64,000 nt of DNA from Natronosalvus caseinilyticus (GTDB taxonomy: Archaea > Halobacteriota > Halobacteria > Halobacteriales > Natrialbaceae), in the NCBI RefSeq assembly GCF_017357105.1, contig NZ_CP071596.1, positions 1,612,001 through 1,676,000 of the forward strand, read 5' to 3'. This document shows, one piece after another, positions 18,365-27,629 of this stretch; position 1 is the stretch's first letter; each line of letters opens with the position of its first letter. The position numbers were made by a program, and so were the translations under genes. The notes under the pieces are model-generated. The model ran no database searches. It saw nothing but the letters and a program-made list of their open reading frames with translations, and was not told the origin of the DNA.

Positions 18365-20767
18365 ATGACAGGCAATTACAAGGATAAGTTCAGCGCAGTC
18401 CTCATGGCTACGCTGATGGTCCTCTCCGTTGTTGCGATCGGTGGCGCGGCCCTTGCGGGTTCCGCCGCTGCATCGAACCACGGTGATGACGTCACGTCTA
18501 CGTCCCTGCTCTGGCAAGGCCAGACTGGACACTACGACACTACGAATGATGTACAGCTCCGCCACGGAACCGGTCCTGGTGATGATGACGGGCTCGTTCG
18601 GGAGCTCTCGCCAGAGAACGGGTACGTTCTGATTGATTCGACGAGTCTTCAGAACGGCGACTACTGGATCAAAGACACCCAGGATGGAGACGCCGACGAC
18701 GTTGGGGCAACCTTTGAAGTCGTCGAACAGTCTCTGACGTCTGAGTGGAGTGAGGACTCCGTCTACAACTCGGGCGACAGCACGTCCGCCACGCTCACGA
18801 TCGACTCGAACCGTGGCGACTACCAGACCAACATCAGTGCTGATGGTCTCGACGGCAGCGAACTCGAGAGCATCTTCGGAACTGACGCTGGTGCTGCCGA
18901 GGGCGACGTCTACGTCGTCCAGAACGGCGACGCGGAACTCGATGCCGACTTCTCGGGTATCGCTGCTGGTGAATACAACTTCACCGTCGATGTCCCTGAC
19001 ACGACGGCTGAAGCAACTCCCTCGATTACTGTCGAGGAACCACCAGAGCTCCAGACTGACATCTCGTTCGATCAGAACACCTACGAGGTTGACGCTGGCG
19101 ACTACGTCGACATCACGATTCAGTTCGAGAACGCCGACACGGCCACGTTCAACATCGTTGAAGAGGACGAGAACTACAACGCCAACGTCACGGTGACCGA
19201 CACCGAAGAGGCAGGCGAAGTAACTGTCCGCTTCAACTCCTACAACGCAGCTAACGACGATGGACCAACGTTCGAGGTCGTTAGCGACAGTGGTTCTGTG
19301 TCCGTCAGCGACGAAACTGACTTCGATGCTCAGTTCGACGAAGAATACCGCCTCCAGCCCGCTGACTTCGAGCTCGAAGTCTACGAGGGTACCGAGGCGG
19401 CTGGTGACGAGTACGACGCCGCACTCCTGCTGCTCCAGGACCGTTCGACCGGCGAACTCAACACCTGGACCGCACCAGCTAGCTACAACTACGACGACGA
19501 CTTCAGCAACATCCAGGACGACCTGACCTCGACCGACACTATCGCTAACGATGACCTCGTTATCGTTGAGGTTGAGGCAACTGGTGTCTACGGATACCTG
19601 TTCAACGCCGACGGTACCTGGAACACTGACAGCAACGTCTCCCTGACGTTCTCCGACACGAACGAGCCTCGATACGGTGAGGCTCCCTCGTTCAACGTCA
19701 CTGAGACTGACTACCAGGTCGTACCTGACGCCGAGAACGGTACGTTCTACGTCGTGACTGACCTCAGCGCTCACAGCGAGGTCGACGCCGGCGAAACCTG
19801 GAACGTTGACTTCACGGTCTCCGAAGACAACCCGTACGTCACTGAGGACGAAGGCGACGACTCTGACCTCAGCATCGAAGAGCGTACGATCGACTTCGAC
19901 AGAGTCAACGATGACGGCGATGTCGAACTCGATAACGTCGAAGAATCCGCAGTCTCCGTGACGAGCAACGTCGCGCCCGGTACGGAAGTCGACTTCCGTC
20001 TCCGCTTCGAGACCTCGGTTCTTTCCCAGTCCGGTATCGTCATCGGTGACGACCACACGGCAACTGCAACGTTCGACCTCAGCGACCGCGAGGTTGGTGA
20101 GGAACTTCGCACCGTTCGCGCGACCGAAGCTGGTGGCGCTTCCGCTGAGTACACCGGCGTAGTCGTCGAAGGCGAAGACGACTCTGAGCCCGGTGCTGCC
20201 TGGAAGGCAACCGCAACCGTCCCTGAGAACGCTGTCGAAGGTGACGTCCTCGAGTTCTCCGTTGATCTCGAGAACAACGGTGACGCCGAAGGCACGACCA
20301 CCGTTCAGCTCGTCGTGGACGGCGAGAAGAACGTCATCGACGAGGAACCGACCGTCGGCGCTGGCGAATCCGTGACGCTCGAAGGCACGGACGAGAAGGC
20401 CTCTGCTGGTGACCACGACTGGCAGCTCATCGTTGGTGACAATGTCATCGACGAGGGTACCTTCACGGTCGAAGAAGGTGAAGACACTGACGGTGACGAC
20501 ACCGACGGTGACGACACTGGCGACGACACCGGCGACGACACTGGTGACGACACCGGCGACGACACTGGCGACGACACCGGCGACGACACTGGTGACGACA
20601 CCGGCGACGACACCGGCGACGACACTGGTGACGACACCGGCGACGACACTGGTGACGACACCGGCGACGATGACGACGACTCCGATGATCAGCCCGGATT
20701 CGGCGTCGCTGTCGCCCTCGTCGCAATCCTCGGCGCTGCGATGCTGGCACTCCGCCGCCAGGACTAA
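18365..20767 (+). CDS. csg: S-layer (cell surface) glycoprotein
   Basis: An 800-residue haloarchaeal S-layer protein. It has the S-layer-type signal peptide (NYKDKFSAVLMATLMVLSVV, cleavage near SAAA-SNHG at about residue 37), many N-x-S/T sequons (NISAD, NFTV, NVTVT, NVSLT, NVTET, NGTFY) and repeated beta-sandwich segments. A Thr/Gly/Asp spacer of TGDD repeats precedes the PGF-CTERM anchor: QPGFGV, a membrane helix and RRQD at the end. PGF-CTERM proteins are processed by archaeosortase ArtA and lipid anchored, as shown for Haloferax. Length is close to known haloarchaeal S-layer proteins. The gene stands alone with its own leader and terminator and should be very highly expressed. The shadow frame on the other strand is not a gene. 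Confidence 0.95.
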   Translation: MTGNYKDKFSAVLMATLMVLSVVAIGGAALAGSAAASNHGDDVTSTSLLWQGQTGHYDTTNDVQLRHGTGPGDDDGLVRELSPENGYVLIDSTSLQNGDYWIKDTQDGDADDVGATFEVVEQSLTSEWSEDSVYNSGDSTSATLTIDSNRGDYQTNISADGLDGSELESIFGTDAGAAEGDVYVVQNGDAELDADFSGIAAGEYNFTVDVPDTTAEATPSITVEEPPELQTDISFDQNTYEVDAGDYVDITIQFENADTATFNIVEEDENYNANVTVTDTEEAGEVTVRFNSYNAANDDGPTFEVVSDSGSVSVSDETDFDAQFDEEYRLQPADFELEVYEGTEAAGDEYDAALLLLQDRSTGELNTWTAPASYNYDDDFSNIQDDLTSTDTIANDDLVIVEVEATGVYGYLFNADGTWNTDSNVSLTFSDTNEPRYGEAPSFNVTETDYQVVPDAENGTFYVVTDLSAHSEVDAGETWNVDFTVSEDNPYVTEDEGDDSDLSIEERTIDFDRVNDDGDVELDNVEESAVSVTSNVAPGTEVDFRLRFETSVLSQSGIVIGDDHTATATFDLSDREVGEELRTVRATEAGGASAEYTGVVVEGEDDSEPGAAWKATATVPENAVEGDVLEFSVDLENNGDAEGTTTVQLVVDGEKNVIDEEPTVGAGESVTLEGTDEKASAGDHDWQLIVGDNVIDEGTFTVEEGEDTDGDDTDGDDTGDDTGDDTGDDTGDDTGDDTGDDTGDDTGDDTGDDTGDDTGDDTGDDTGDDDDDSDDQPGFGVAVALVAILGAAMLALRRQD
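20516..20671 (+). repeat. 13 tandem 12-bp units encoding TGDD
   Basis: Thirteen consecutive 12-base units (ACY GGY GAC GAY) near the 3' end of the S-layer gene, translated as TGDD. Synonymous variants ACT/ACC and GGT/GGC alternate, so copies expanded and later drifted. The repeat forms the spacer before the cell-surface anchor. Confidence 0.95.
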
Positions 20768-21759: not shown

Positions 21760-23307
21760 CTACGCCGACTCCTGTACGAAGTCGCCCGAGCAGTCGTATT
21801 CGATGAGCGTGAATCGGGCGACGTCCGGTTCGTCGTCGTACGGTCCCGATCGATCCGTCATTCCGTAGATGGTCAGGCTCTCGACGTCAGTCTCGTGCTC
21901 CTCGTTCCAGCGATCACAGAGGTAGTTCGCCGTGTACGACCGATGTTTTTCGTTGTCGACGTATCGCATGTTCGAGAGGTACTTGCGCCAGCGCGCACTC
22001 TTGTAGGTCTCGTCGACGCTCGGTGGCCTGTCCCAGTCGACTTCCCCGCCGTGCATGACGTCGACTTCCGAACCGTCCTCGAGTTCACCAGGGACGACGA
22101 ACCACTTGGCGTTCGAGGTGGGGTTCGGGGCGAACATCCGCCAGCTCTGATCGATCATCGTAGTGTCGATGACCTGCTCTGCAGGGTCGGGGACCTCGGT
22201 GTAGTCGACAGCCTCTGCGTTGGCGAACAGGACGAGGAGCAGGAACATGGCGGGAAGAACGGAGAAAAACGCGTCGCGCCCGCCTGCGGTTACCGTCGAG
22301 AGCGACGGGTGAGACAGCGATGCCGACGGCGAGGGGAATCTCGGGGCGGTCCGCTGCAGCCACTCGAGTCGTGCTCGAAGCGGCGTATCCAGGCCGAGAT
22401 AGGCGCCGAGTGCGGTCACCCGATCCCACACCGCTGGTGGATAAAAGAGGAGCAACCCGGAGACGGCGATCAGGGGGAAGAGATCGATACGGAGGGTGAC
22501 GACCATCCCGAGGTGCATTCCGGCGAGAGCCGTCGCCAGCAGGGCTCGAGGATACCCGGTGAGGAGGATTAACAGTGGGGAAGCGAAGATACAGACGAGC
22601 CAGGCGTACGTAAACAACTTGAGCAGCAGGAACTGATCCGCGAGCACATTGCCGAGGAGGATCGTCAGGTGGTCCGCCTGGAAGATGAAGCCGACCGCTT
22701 CTCCGCTCATCCACTTGTCGCTCCCGTACTTGTGGATGGCGTTAGTGAAGTACATCAGGAACACCTGTAATAGGACGGCCATCGTCGCTTCGCTCGAGAG
22801 CGTCGACCGTGGCAGATCGATCCGTCGGGCGTCGATGGCCCACCGCTCCCCGAGCGGGAGGAAGATTCCCCAGAACAACAGTAATCGCAACAGGATGTCG
22901 CCCGAGTTAAGTACCATCGGCATTCGAATGTGCAGCGACACGAGCAGGAACCAGGAGACGACGGTTGCGAGTCGAGTTCGATACCCGAGTATCAACGCGA
23001 GTGCAAACCCTCCTGCAATGGCGAATAACAGCGCCTGTACCCACGGTTCGCCCGAAATTGCGTGTACTGAGTAGACGTCGGAGTAGTCCGAGAAAAGTGC
23101 CCGTAGCGGAAGGACGCCCTCGTCGGTGTGGAACTCTCTGAGGTGACGAGTCCGATTCAGCAGGTCGAGGATGATGAGGAGCCCGAGTGCGATTCGAAAC
23201 GCGGCGAGCGCCCGGAGGTCTATCTCGAACCGTCGCTGGAGGGCGACGGCGAACCGATCCATGGCGGCTGACAGCCGGTCCAGACTGGAGGTGGATTGCG
23301 AGGACAT
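21760..23307 (-). CDS. HTTM-domain membrane protein
   Basis: A 515-residue membrane protein of the HTTM group (homologues of vitamin K-dependent gamma-carboxylase). It has the family's N-terminal LAAFRIALGLLIILDLLNR, several helices (SWFLLVSLHIRMPMVLNSGD, FLMYFTNAIHKYGSDKW with the typical K-W motif), and a C-terminal soluble region with QSWRMFAPNP. HTTM proteins in prokaryotes are of uncertain function and often sit beside DCC-family thiol oxidoreductases, as here in divergent orientation. ATG 23307 (MSSQST) was chosen over 23403 because the extra Arg-rich residues do not match the family N-terminus. Confidence 0.88.
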   Translation of the reverse strand: MSSQSTSSLDRLSAAMDRFAVALQRRFEIDLRALAAFRIALGLLIILDLLNRTRHLREFHTDEGVLPLRALFSDYSDVYSVHAISGEPWVQALLFAIAGGFALALILGYRTRLATVVSWFLLVSLHIRMPMVLNSGDILLRLLLFWGIFLPLGERWAIDARRIDLPRSTLSSEATMAVLLQVFLMYFTNAIHKYGSDKWMSGEAVGFIFQADHLTILLGNVLADQFLLLKLFTYAWLVCIFASPLLILLTGYPRALLATALAGMHLGMVVTLRIDLFPLIAVSGLLLFYPPAVWDRVTALGAYLGLDTPLRARLEWLQRTAPRFPSPSASLSHPSLSTVTAGGRDAFFSVLPAMFLLLVLFANAEAVDYTEVPDPAEQVIDTTMIDQSWRMFAPNPTSNAKWFVVPGELEDGSEVDVMHGGEVDWDRPPSVDETYKSARWRKYLSNMRYVDNEKHRSYTANYLCDRWNEEHETDVESLTIYGMTDRSGPYDDEPDVARFTLIEYDCSGDFVQESA

Positions 23308-23556
23308 CGTTTGGGTCGATCGTTTCCGAGGTGTCACGCGCAATGATGCATAAGCTTGTTGTCTTCTTCGGGCCTGACGTGGCCTTGCGGCCGGTATCGT
23401 CACGCGATTTGCGCTCGTCTTTGCTCAAGCCCGCGCGTTCGTCTATCACTCGACCTGGGACGTCCGTGCAACTGTGAGAGTCGACGGATAGAGTAAACGG
23501 AGACCCCAATCACCGCCATCGGAATGCTGAACTACACACCGAACGAAAATCGACCA

Positions 23557-23991
23557 ATGAGCGCCGACCTCGAGGTTCCCGCAGACGCCCCAATCCTCCT
23601 CTTCGACGGCATTTGCAACCTCTGCAACGGCTTCGTCCAGTTCGTCGTCCCCCGCGATACGGACGAGCAGTTCTACTTCGCTTCGATCCAGTCCGACGTG
23701 GGCAAGGCGCTGTGTGCCGAGCACGGTCTGCCGACCGACGAACTCGAGTCGGTCGTCCTGATCGAGGGCGAGGACAGTTACGTCAAGTCGGGAGCGATCA
23801 TCCGCACGGCGAGCCATCTCGGTGGGATCTACGCCCTGCTATCGCCGTTTCGGTTCGTCCCGCGCCCGGTTCGAGACTGGGCGTACGACTTCGTCGCGAA
23901 CCGGCGCTACCGCTGGTTCGGGAAGAAAGAGCAGTGTATGATGCCGACGGGGGACGTGCAGTCGCGGTTCCTCGAGCGTACCGATCCCTGA
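23557..23991 (+). CDS. DCC-family thiol-disulfide oxidoreductase (DUF393)
   Basis: A 144-residue DUF393 protein with the defining motif FDGICNLCNG (D-x-x-C-x-x-C), a thioredoxin-like fold and the C-terminal RYRWFGKKEQCMMP typical of the family. The twin cysteines should perform thiol-disulfide exchange. Start ATG 23557 is preferred; an earlier ATG at 23524 adds 11 residues without conservation. It is divergent from the HTTM gene with 249 bases between the two starts, an association seen in many bacteria and archaea, where DCC and HTTM domains are also found fused. The substrate is unknown. Confidence 0.88.
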   Translation: MSADLEVPADAPILLFDGICNLCNGFVQFVVPRDTDEQFYFASIQSDVGKALCAEHGLPTDELESVVLIEGEDSYVKSGAIIRTASHLGGIYALLSPFRFVPRPVRDWAYDFVANRRYRWFGKKEQCMMPTGDVQSRFLERTDP

Positions 23992-24403: not shown

Positions 24404-25768
24404 TCAGTCGTCGGCCGCCGGAACTTCCTCTCTCTCCTCGAGCACGGCGTCCTCGCGCTCTCGCTCGAGGTCCTCGAGGTACTCGTCGGCGTCGATGGCC
24501 GCCTTCGAGCCCATGCCCGCGGCGGTGACCGCTTGCTGGTAGTGGTAGTCAACGACGTCGCCGGCGCCGAAGATACCGGCGACGTCGGTTTCGGTCTGGC
24601 CGCCGCCGTCGCCGCCTTTTGTCTCGAGGTAGCCTTCGTCGTCGGTTTCGATGCCGAGTCCCTCGAGGTAGTCGGTGTTGGGCGTGTGGCCGATGGCGAA
24701 GAAGACGGCGCCGACGTCGAAGTCGAACTCCTCGGTTTCGGGGTCGTCGAGGCGGTCGGTGGGGTGCCCCTTCTCGTTGCGAACGAGGGTGACGTGGTCG
24801 ACACCTTCCTCCTGGGAGCCGTGAATCTCGATCAATTCGGTGTTCTTCATGATCTCGATGTTGCCGTCCTCGACGTGCTCGTGGACGCGGTCGATCCAGT
24901 AGTCCTCGGCGCGGAACTCCTCGCGGCGGTGGGCCAGGTAGACCGTGTCGGCGAACTTCGTGAGGAACGAGGCTTCCTCCATGGCTGCGTCGCCACCGCC
25001 GACCACGAGCATGTCCTCGTCGCGGAAGAACGCGCCGTCGCAGGTCGCACACGTCGAGAGGCCGTAGCCCATGAGTTCGTCCTCGCCAGGGATGCCGAGG
25101 GTTCGGGCGCTGGCGCCGGAGGCGACGATGACGGCGTCGGCGGTGTAGCGGTCGCCGTTGGTGAGGTCGACGCAGAAGGAGTCCTCGGTGGCGCCCTCCA
25201 CGACCGAGGGATCCTCGAGCCGTTCGACGTTCGCGACGATGCCGTTTTTCAGCTCGGCGCCGAACTGGCGGGCCTGTTCCTTCATGTCGTTCACGAGTTC
25301 CGGGCCGCTGATCCCCTCGGGGAAGCCCGGGTAGTTCGCCACGTCGGTCGTCAAGGTGAGCTGGCCGCCGGGTTCGTCGCCCTCGATGACCAGGGGCTCG
25401 TTGTTCGACCGGCCGGCGTAGATGGCCGCCGTCAGGCCGGCGATACCCGTTCCGGCGATGATCAGGCGACGGTGCTCGACGACCTCGCAGTCGTCTTCGC
25501 GGGCGATCCCGAGCATCTCGTCGAGTTCGCCGGTCTCGTCGAGGGCGCTGGTCTCGTCCCAGCCGCCGATCAGTTCGTCGTTCACGAACACTTCGGGGGC
25601 GGTCTTGCGGCCCTCGGCGCGGTCGACCATCTCCTCGAACAGGTCCTCGTCACCCGTGACGTTGTAGGTCTCGTAGGCGACCTCCTTGGCGTCGAAGAGG
25701 TCCTTCGCCTTCTCGCAGTACGGGCAGTTCTCTTTGGTGTAAATTTCGACTCGAGGGGCGTCGCTCAT
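24404..25768 (-). CDS. Glutaredoxin-thioredoxin reductase fusion
   Basis: A 454-residue fusion. Residues about 5-85 are glutaredoxin-like, with the dithiol CPYC (TKENCPYCEKAKDLF) and TAPEVFVND. Residues about 98-440 are a low-molecular-weight thioredoxin reductase: FAD-binding GTGIAGLTAAIYAGR, redox-active CATCDG, a second dinucleotide site VVGGGDAAMEEA and terminal GIFGAGDV. An acidic tail closes it. TrxR reduces thioredoxin with NAD(P)H; the attached Grx domain may be its built-in acceptor, which would make a self-contained reductase since haloarchaea use gamma-glutamylcysteine rather than glutathione (inference). Its ATG overlaps the stop of the upstream DUF389 gene (ATGA), so both are co-translated. 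Confidence 0.93.
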   Translation of the reverse strand: MSDAPRVEIYTKENCPYCEKAKDLFDAKEVAYETYNVTGDEDLFEEMVDRAEGRKTAPEVFVNDELIGGWDETSALDETGELDEMLGIAREDDCEVVEHRRLIIAGTGIAGLTAAIYAGRSNNEPLVIEGDEPGGQLTLTTDVANYPGFPEGISGPELVNDMKEQARQFGAELKNGIVANVERLEDPSVVEGATEDSFCVDLTNGDRYTADAVIVASGASARTLGIPGEDELMGYGLSTCATCDGAFFRDEDMLVVGGGDAAMEEASFLTKFADTVYLAHRREEFRAEDYWIDRVHEHVEDGNIEIMKNTELIEIHGSQEEGVDHVTLVRNEKGHPTDRLDDPETEEFDFDVGAVFFAIGHTPNTDYLEGLGIETDDEGYLETKGGDGGGQTETDVAGIFGAGDVVDYHYQQAVTAAGMGSKAAIDADEYLEDLEREREDAVLEEREEVPAADD

Positions 25769-27186
25769 GTATCCGTACTACGCACAGGCGACCTAAACGC
25801 CTTGCGTTCCTGGCATTCCGCGGTCGGTCCTGGCGACCCTCCCATTCCGCGGTCGTCCGCATGTCGGTTCACCGAGTCGAACCGCGCGTCGCCAAGGTTC
25901 GCTCCGGTGTCCCGGTCGACGTACTCGACGGTCACGTCGATCTGGCGACCCGTCCGATCCTCGAGCGCGTCCTCGAGGGTAGAGACGAGGTCCGGGTAGG
26001 CGACACCGTCGGGACGGCGAATTACGGCGGTCACCTCGTAGGAGGTAGCCAGGTCGCCCCCGGCGAACTCCGTCCGGAGTTCGACGAGCTCGAGCCGGTC
26101 GTACTCGGGATTATCGAGGACGGTTCGGATCTCCTCGTTGACGTCGTTTTCGAAGGAGACGTGGTGGAAGAGGACGCCGCCGGCGAGCAGGCAGACGAGC
26201 GAGAGGACGAGGATTGCGGGAACGATCGCGCCGAGGCGGTCGCGGGCCAGGTTCCCACGCAGATCTCCCGGGACCCAGTGGTCGGGCCGGTAGCCGAGGT
26301 ACCAGAAGACGGCGAGGCCGGAGAGGACGATGGACGCGGCGTTGATCGTGAGCAGGACGAACGCTCCGGCCGCGACCAGGGGCGCGTTCCAGGCCAGGCC
26401 GATGCCCACGGCCGCCGCGGCGGGGATGAGCGCCGCGGCGATCATGACGCCGACGAGTGAGACGGGCAGGGCGGTCGCCAGCCCGAACGCGCCCGCAGCA
26501 CCGGCGCAGATGCCAATGAGCAGCGAGAGGAGGTCGGGCGAGATGCGGGTGCTCACCTGGTGGATGGCCGTGATCTCGATAGTCGAGGGGACGATGGCCC
26601 CCGAGCGGACGAGCCAGGCGAACGCGAACGCCCCGGCCATCGCGGCCACCAGCCCGCCGACGAGCGAGGAGATGCCGCCGACGATCATGCCGCGGTCGTT
26701 GAGCACCATCCCGACGGTGCCGGTCAGCGCGGCGCTCACCTGCGGGGCGATGACCATCGACCCCACGACGATAGCCGGCGAGTCGAGCAGAAGGCCGGCC
26801 GTCGCCACGACTGCACTCAGAAGCGTCATCGCGTAGTAGGTGAGGCGGTTCGGCGTCATGTTCAGTGCCCGCGTCCGAATCTCTTCGTAGAAGATACTGT
26901 CGTCGGACTCGCTCCCGCTGACGAAGCGCTTCTCGAGGGACTCGAGGCCCGGCGTCCGTGCCGTCTCGATCGAACTGACGACGATGAAGTCGTCGTCGAC
27001 GCCGGCTTCCTCGAGCGTCTCGAGGACCTCCTCGACGGCCTGTGTGGGCAACGGAAACTGGACGATGACGCTGTCTTCCTCGTCGGTGTTCTCCCGGAGG
27101 GTTACGTAGTCGATCCCCTCGGTGTCGAGCGCGAACAGCACGTCGTCCCGGACGGCGGAGGGGACGAGCGCCTGTATCAGTCGCAT
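25765..27186 (-). CDS. DUF389 / TIGR00341 family membrane protein
   Basis: A 473-residue protein. The N-terminal 100 residues form a regulatory-like alpha/beta domain (MRLIQALVPS, then DFIVVSSIETART). A DUF389 membrane domain follows with about eight helices and the signature NRLTYYAMTLLSAVVATAGL and SPAIVVGSMVIAPQVSA. A C-terminal soluble part has an acidic alpha/beta segment. Start ATG 27186 matches the family N-terminus; the frame opens five codons earlier. The function of DUF389 is not known to me beyond a predicted transporter or sensor. The stop overlaps the Grx-TrxR start by 4 bases, tying it to thiol redox metabolism in this genome. Confidence 0.88.
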   Translation of the reverse strand: MRLIQALVPSAVRDDVLFALDTEGIDYVTLRENTDEEDSVIVQFPLPTQAVEEVLETLEEAGVDDDFIVVSSIETARTPGLESLEKRFVSGSESDDSIFYEEIRTRALNMTPNRLTYYAMTLLSAVVATAGLLLDSPAIVVGSMVIAPQVSAALTGTVGMVLNDRGMIVGGISSLVGGLVAAMAGAFAFAWLVRSGAIVPSTIEITAIHQVSTRISPDLLSLLIGICAGAAGAFGLATALPVSLVGVMIAAALIPAAAAVGIGLAWNAPLVAAGAFVLLTINAASIVLSGLAVFWYLGYRPDHWVPGDLRGNLARDRLGAIVPAILVLSLVCLLAGGVLFHHVSFENDVNEEIRTVLDNPEYDRLELVELRTEFAGGDLATSYEVTAVIRRPDGVAYPDLVSTLEDALEDRTGRQIDVTVEYVDRDTGANLGDARFDSVNRHADDRGMGGSPGPTAECQERKAFRSPVRSTDT

Positions 27187-27344: not shown

Positions 27345-27629
27345 ATGCCCGCTGAACTCGAGGAGAAGACCGATCGCTACGGCACCCTCTTGGCGGAGGC
27401 GCTCGAGGCGGCGACCATCGCGCCGCCGGAGGGAACCCCGATGGCGGAGGCTGCCGCGGAGTGTCACGAGATGGCCCGGTCGTACCTCGAGGACGGTCGC
27501 CACTTTCGGGAGGAAGGCGACCTGGTGAACGCGCTCGCGGCGTTCTCCTACGGACACGCCTGGCTCGATGCCGGGGCTCGGATCGGACTATTCGACGTGC
27601 CAACCGAGGGTCACCTCTTCACCGTCTGA
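27345..27629 (+). CDS. DUF357 family protein
   Basis: A 94-residue helical protein of the archaeal DUF357 family, with MAEAAAECHEMARSYLED followed by GDLVNALAAFSYGHAWLDAG near the C-terminus. The fold is predicted as a small antiparallel helical bundle resembling TPR-like modules. Function unknown. It sits 208 bases upstream of the TFB gene on the same strand, separated by a clear promoter, so they are probably separate transcripts. Confidence 0.85.
   Translation: MPAELEEKTDRYGTLLAEALEAATIAPPEGTPMAEAAAECHEMARSYLEDGRHFREEGDLVNALAAFSYGHAWLDAGARIGLFDVPTEGHLFTV

Follow-up and report, generated by a model that had tools for sequence, protein, structure and literature searches.

A haloarchaeal glutaredoxin–thioredoxin reductase fusion and its apparently optional DUF389 neighbour

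The window, a stretch of 64,000 nucleotides from Natronosalvus caseinilyticus, contains two minus-strand genes in tandem, one for a DUF389 membrane protein and one for a glutaredoxin–thioredoxin reductase (Grx-TrxR) fusion, with a divergent DUF357 gene upstream (Table 1). The ATG of the fusion (25768-25766) and the TGA of the DUF389 gene (25767-25765) share the bases ATGA (25765-25768). This overlap, the DUF389 assignment and the fusion with its CPYC and CATC pairs had been named in a preliminary description of the region, and all three are borne out: the DUF389 protein matches PF04087 over residues 144-288 (90.8 bits against a cut-off of 23.9), domain profile searches assign the two parts of the fusion to Glutaredoxin (PF00462, residues 7-67, 65.2 bits) and Pyr_redox_2 (PF07992, residues 101-420, 152.9 bits), and both active-site pairs were located. 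Downstream of the fusion lie divergent genes for an HTTM protein and a DCC1-like thiol-disulfide oxidoreductase (window 21760-23991); several loci of Natrialba and Natronorubrum have both genes in this position as well. The window also holds a long, surface-protein-like open reading frame on the plus strand (18365-20767), in which a repetitive D/T/G-rich stretch is followed by a C-terminal hydrophobic segment.

Table 1. Features of the locus, in window coordinates.
Feature	Position	Strand	Remarks
Grx-TrxR fusion gene	24404..25768	-	454 aa
Low-Mr NADPH thioredoxin reductase domain, about residues 97-436	24461..25480	-	CATC at 25040-25051
Glutaredoxin domain, residues 7-67	25568..25750	-	CPYC at 25715-25726
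DUF389 membrane protein gene	25765..27186	-	473 aa; PF04087
Lineage-specific C-terminal extension of DUF389	25765..25899	-	creates the ATGA overlap
Promoter-like block GAACGCAAGGCGTTTAGG	25792..25809	-	TATA-like TTTA near -27; inside the extended DUF389 frame in the window
DUF389 N-terminal domain, residues 1-81	26944..27186	-	modelled PII-like fold
DUF357 gene	27345..27629	+	divergent neighbour shared by fused TrxR loci and the majority of unfused ones

The fusion is encoded in a single, intact, stop-free reading frame. Its reductase part features the FAD and NADPH folds, the CATC pair and the NADPH motif HRR...R of a low-Mr thioredoxin reductase, and the full protein scores 318.7 bits with TIGR01292, below the curated cut-off of 343.45. 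The AhpF profile TIGR03140 aligns with residues 13-431 at 176 bits, short of its cut-off of 502.9, and the high-Mr profile TIGR01438 is absent among the best 25 of 52 NCBIfam matches, the core being TIGR01292-like with CATC. The glutaredoxin part combines the PF00462 match with CPYC, TxP and GG; the latter two motifs are part of the thiol-binding groove of glutaredoxins. A short, variable, acidic linker joins the two domains, and the protein stops shortly past the reductase core. In the structure model (mean pLDDT 81.3, pTM 0.61, 37 sequences) both domains are folded, and the matching PDB structures are thioredoxin reductases and AhpF; because the linker and residues 133-153 are poorly modelled (pLDDT <50), the docking of the glutaredoxin on the reductase cannot be read from it.

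An alignment of 68 fused proteins, one from the window and the others from the 67 named loci, served to compare the motifs. The reductase CATC and residues H280, R281, R282 and R286 are present in all 68. In the glutaredoxin domain C15, T56, P58 and G68-G69 are likewise invariant, and C18 is kept in 67; exact CPYC is found in 56, the others having CSYC, CSHC, CGYC, CSFC and, in one case, CPDS. As judged from the alignment, this pattern supports a working dithiol glutaredoxin, and the invariance of C15, the T.P turn and GG, with C18 in 67 of 68, argues for selection on glutaredoxin function. The CPDS protein (L084), in which residue 18 is lost, is a natural monothiol variant, and given this loss the domain may also operate in a monothiol mode.

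With the whole fusion protein as query, 193 of the 194 genomes of the class gave a match. The glutaredoxin domain alone matched 80 of the 194, 13 of them only weakly, leaving 67 with a strong match: 48 of the 49 genomes of the window's family (f1), seven in f2, six in f6, three in f7, two in f9 and one in f10. The strong matches listed all sit in frames of fusion size; the family's single exception (G029) has a reductase without the glutaredoxin. For the 13 weak-match genomes the best E values range from 1.2e-10 to 8.1e-9, with identities of at most 41% among the rows listed, and these matches are likely to be other glutaredoxin types. A broader sample of 196 genomes from the phylum gave matches in 12, each of which the class sample already contains. 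Its unbroken reading frame and its recurrence in 67 of the 194 genomes show that the fusion is neither an assembly artefact nor a rarity. An origin from a stand-alone glutaredoxin retained in unfused genomes was also considered and rejected: the domain search of the 194 genomes gave no close stand-alone copy among the matches listed at E 1e-8, and the 13 genomes have weak matches only.

Among the best 80 of 189 loci from named genomes, 67 are fused. The divergent DUF357 gene lies upstream of 63 of these 67 and of 9 of the 13 unfused ones; one of the four fused loci without it (L100) has only 171 bases upstream, and one of the four unfused (L113) has 661. As this neighbour is shared by fused and unfused loci, the reductases are mostly positional orthologues. 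On a quick tree of the reductases the fused/unfused state requires nine changes, of which the starred branches force only one, and the single outgroup row is very long, so that the glutaredoxin may have been either gained or lost. The unfused orthologues, together with the altered motifs (CSHC, CPDS) of some fused homologues, would fit a housekeeping thioredoxin reductase that serves separate thioredoxins and carries its glutaredoxin as a vestigial or regulatory appendage, but such a role is hard to reconcile with glutaredoxin residues that are invariant, or nearly so, in 68 proteins, and we regard it as unlikely.

The genome encodes a haloarchaeal glutamate-cysteine ligase (gshA; 694.8 bits, cut-off 395), in keeping with the gamma-glutamylcysteine use that had been proposed for this organism. 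However, the family is present in all 194 class genomes, fused and unfused alike, so gshA does not single out the fusion. Bis-gamma-glutamylcystine reductase has reportedly been studied by Sundquist and Fahey, and also by Kim and Copley. A candidate for this enzyme is L003, a separate flavoprotein of the same type as glutathione reductase and dihydrolipoyl dehydrogenase (NF004946, 780.3 bits, cut-off 634). The fusion could itself be that reductase, as a gamma-glutamylcysteine counterpart of thioredoxin-glutathione reductase, its glutaredoxin retaining the TAP and GG motifs in a genome with gshA; with L003 the better candidate for the known enzyme, and gshA universal, this is improbable. A Grx4-type monothiol glutaredoxin (L147) is also present, at 102.8 bits below its cut-off of 117.1. 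PMC7278568 reports thioltransferase activity in gamma-glutamylcysteine-using haloarchaea; its section 5 treats glutaredoxin and thioredoxin reductase as separate parts and makes no mention of a fusion.

A second low-Mr thioredoxin reductase is found outside the window (L007:1477-2508; G000:C1 near 2280218-2281222), joined by an ATGA overlap to a thioredoxin gene. A TAG within its reading frame follows the GG of the FAD-binding part and may be a sequencing error; relatives in G196, G194, G045, G046, G195 and G197 have longer open frames of 353-466 aa. If the TAG is real, the fusion is the sole intact low-Mr thioredoxin reductase of this genome.

Unlike the fusion, the DUF389 gene is an inconstant member of the locus. 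By coordinate comparison it adjoins the fusion on the same strand in 15 of the 49 family genomes and in none of the 19 fused genomes outside the family, and in 15 of the 67 named fused loci; the counts cover the matches listed, down to about E 9e-83 with the adjacent cases all <1e-143, and weaker adjacent relatives are possible. In Halorubellus (L102) a DUF389 gene lies 1,042 bp from the fusion. On the quick tree its presence requires at least 12 changes among the 68 fused rows. Natrinema versiforme (L070) retains a remnant only, a piece matching residues 349-430, and L046, probably N. hydrolyticus, has short stretches resembling the start and end of the gene in its near relative G046 (L017; E 2.9e-10 and 3.5e-9), which point to gene loss in these two species. 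Other families contain DUF389 relatives that are not located near a fusion. Of two doubts that the preliminary description had itself raised, that about the synteny of the pair was therefore well founded, whereas the suspicion of a rare or artefactual fusion was not. Judging by the locus pattern, DUF389 is probably an optional occupant of the space between DUF357 and the fusion, subject to many losses or gains, and we do not judge it part of the fusion's system; given its recurrence in the family, a loose functional link is possible.

The ATGA overlap occurs only in the window among 28 distinct DUF389–fusion pairs (26 with the window included, plus the genus relatives G196 and G194); in the other 27 the DUF389 gene stops 24-230 bp before the fusion. 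In 25 of these the protein has 429-439 aa and the gap is 57-230 bp. In G196 and G194, whose fusions are 96% identical to that of the window, the frames of DUF389 measure 454 and 469 aa, the gap is 24 bp, and the stop is a TAG within the TATA-like GTTTAGG of the fusion's promoter-like block. A DNA alignment traces the difference between these two and the window to indels in a short GGAATGCC-type repeat directly upstream; the indels set the DUF389 frame and therefore its stop. The indels would have shifted the window's frame past the TAG used by its nearest species and so created the overlap, which appears to be an accidental, species-specific read-through. A four-base gene overlap in a single genome is not, in itself, evidence for an operon.

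The promoter-like block has the consensus GAACGCAAGG(C/G)GTTTAGG and starts 40-46 bp before the fusion ATG in 49 Natrialbaceae rows. Every row matches this consensus, which was derived from the same sequences, at 12 or more of 18 positions, with a median of 17 in rows with DUF389 (n=18) and 16 in rows without (n=31); the window block has 17 of 18. Of 980 trials with shuffled upstream sequences, 4 attained 13 and 17 attained 12, so that the weakest rows (12/18) are within chance by score alone, although one of them, L018, has the block at the usual place. Because of the shared origin of consensus and data, the position of the block and its equality between the two groups weigh more than the score. 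Families outside the Natrialbaceae have a different AT-rich element at a similar place. The block presumably corresponds to the TATA box of a haloarchaeal promoter whose transcript is leaderless or nearly so, and the fusion would thus have a conserved promoter of its own, with or without DUF389. A regulon sharing the block was considered as well and rejected, the core having a single match in the whole genome.

It had been proposed that the two genes are co-translated and form a redox-controlled transporter or a membrane reductase system. Translational coupling through ATGA is rejected on the solitary overlap, the fusion's own block and the frame-shifting indels, and DUF389 as a redox partner finds no support in so patchy an adjacency. 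A co-translated unit in which the reductase controls or energises a membrane transporter has the ATGA and the recurrent same-strand adjacency in its favour, but is very improbable in view of a unique overlap, a block kept irrespective of DUF389, a DUF389 gene that most fused genomes lack or have only as a remnant and that occurs elsewhere with no fusion nearby, and an alignment of 17 DUF389 proteins in which no invariant or almost invariant column is a cysteine.

The N-terminus of the DUF389 protein, in a weak model (mean pLDDT 63.1), superposes on the PII-like PstA (4rwx; Z 12.1, with an rmsd of 1.7 for 73 residues). Such a fold would point to a sensor of ligands that caps the membrane protein. 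The membrane part is also weakly modelled, and its fold matches (zinc transporters in Foldseek, TM about 0.2; HSC channel entries in VIA-align, rmsd near 5 Å) are for this reason uninformative. The searches yielded no function for DUF389, and the leading literature match to its name concerns DUF3893. A DUF389 paralogue (L154, G000:C1:2712000-2724000) lies about 5 kb from gshA; from a reading of their translations, the genes between them are phosphate-permease-like and UspA-like.

We consider it probable that the locus holds two independent things: a thioredoxin reductase, dependent on NADPH and FAD, that carries a fused dithiol glutaredoxin and has an internal relay, and an optional DUF389 gene whose overlap is accidental. 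In low-Mr thioredoxin reductases electrons pass from NADPH to FAD and to the CATC pair, which swings out to a dithiol carrier. Here the carrier would be on the same chain, and the path that we infer runs from NADPH through FAD and C240/C243 to C15/C18 of the glutaredoxin, of the own or the partner subunit, and on to disulfide targets; candidates are proteins, peroxiredoxins and mixed disulfides with gamma-glutamylcysteine. By analogy with known enzymes such an internal relay is likely, and recharging of the glutaredoxin would then be independent of a low-molecular-weight thiol. More tentatively, the enzyme might be a self-recharging haloarchaeal glutaredoxin, the thioredoxin-glutathione reductase (TGR) counterpart of the gamma-glutamylcysteine world, that strips gamma-glutamylcysteine from proteins and needs neither the free thiol nor any separate disulfide reductase, the domain having been acquired or lost at the DUF357–TrxR locus itself; this extension we hold to be possible, though doubtful.

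How archaea with gamma-glutamylcysteine control their thiols is poorly understood, and a search of the open-access PMC literature turned up no description of a Grx-TrxR fusion in haloarchaea. Conserved family-wide and with unfused orthologues at the same locus, the fusion offers a natural comparison of the enzyme with and without glutaredoxin; it merits a biochemical look, which the DUF389–fusion pair does not.

Among known systems, the fusion shares with TrxB, the low-Mr NADPH thioredoxin reductase, the FAD/NADPH motifs, CATC, HRR...R and the best PDB matches; it differs in the additional N-terminal glutaredoxin domain and in a score below the TIGR01292 cut-off. TGR/TXNRD3 likewise carries an N-terminal glutaredoxin on a thioredoxin reductase, but one of the high-Mr type, whereas the core of the fusion is low-Mr with CATC. 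NTRC also unites a thioredoxin reductase and a dithiol carrier in one chain, with thioredoxin at the C end; in the fusion the carrier is an N-terminal glutaredoxin, and no thioredoxin follows the reductase. In AhpF, as in the fusion, a thioredoxin-fold dithiol domain precedes a TrxR-like core; according to PMC12288474, this domain is reduced by its own core and passes electrons on to AhpC, and it consists of two fused thioredoxin folds, compared with the single glutaredoxin domain here. AhpF is the nearest worked example, and the fusion is most likely AhpF- or NTRC-like in mechanism. The same architecture is found in Ilyobacter polytropus trxB (WP_013388892.1; 401 aa, CPYC and CATC), which is 43.6% identical to the fusion over query residues 7-425 but is bacterial (Fusobacteriota) and annotated only as a thioredoxin-disulfide reductase.
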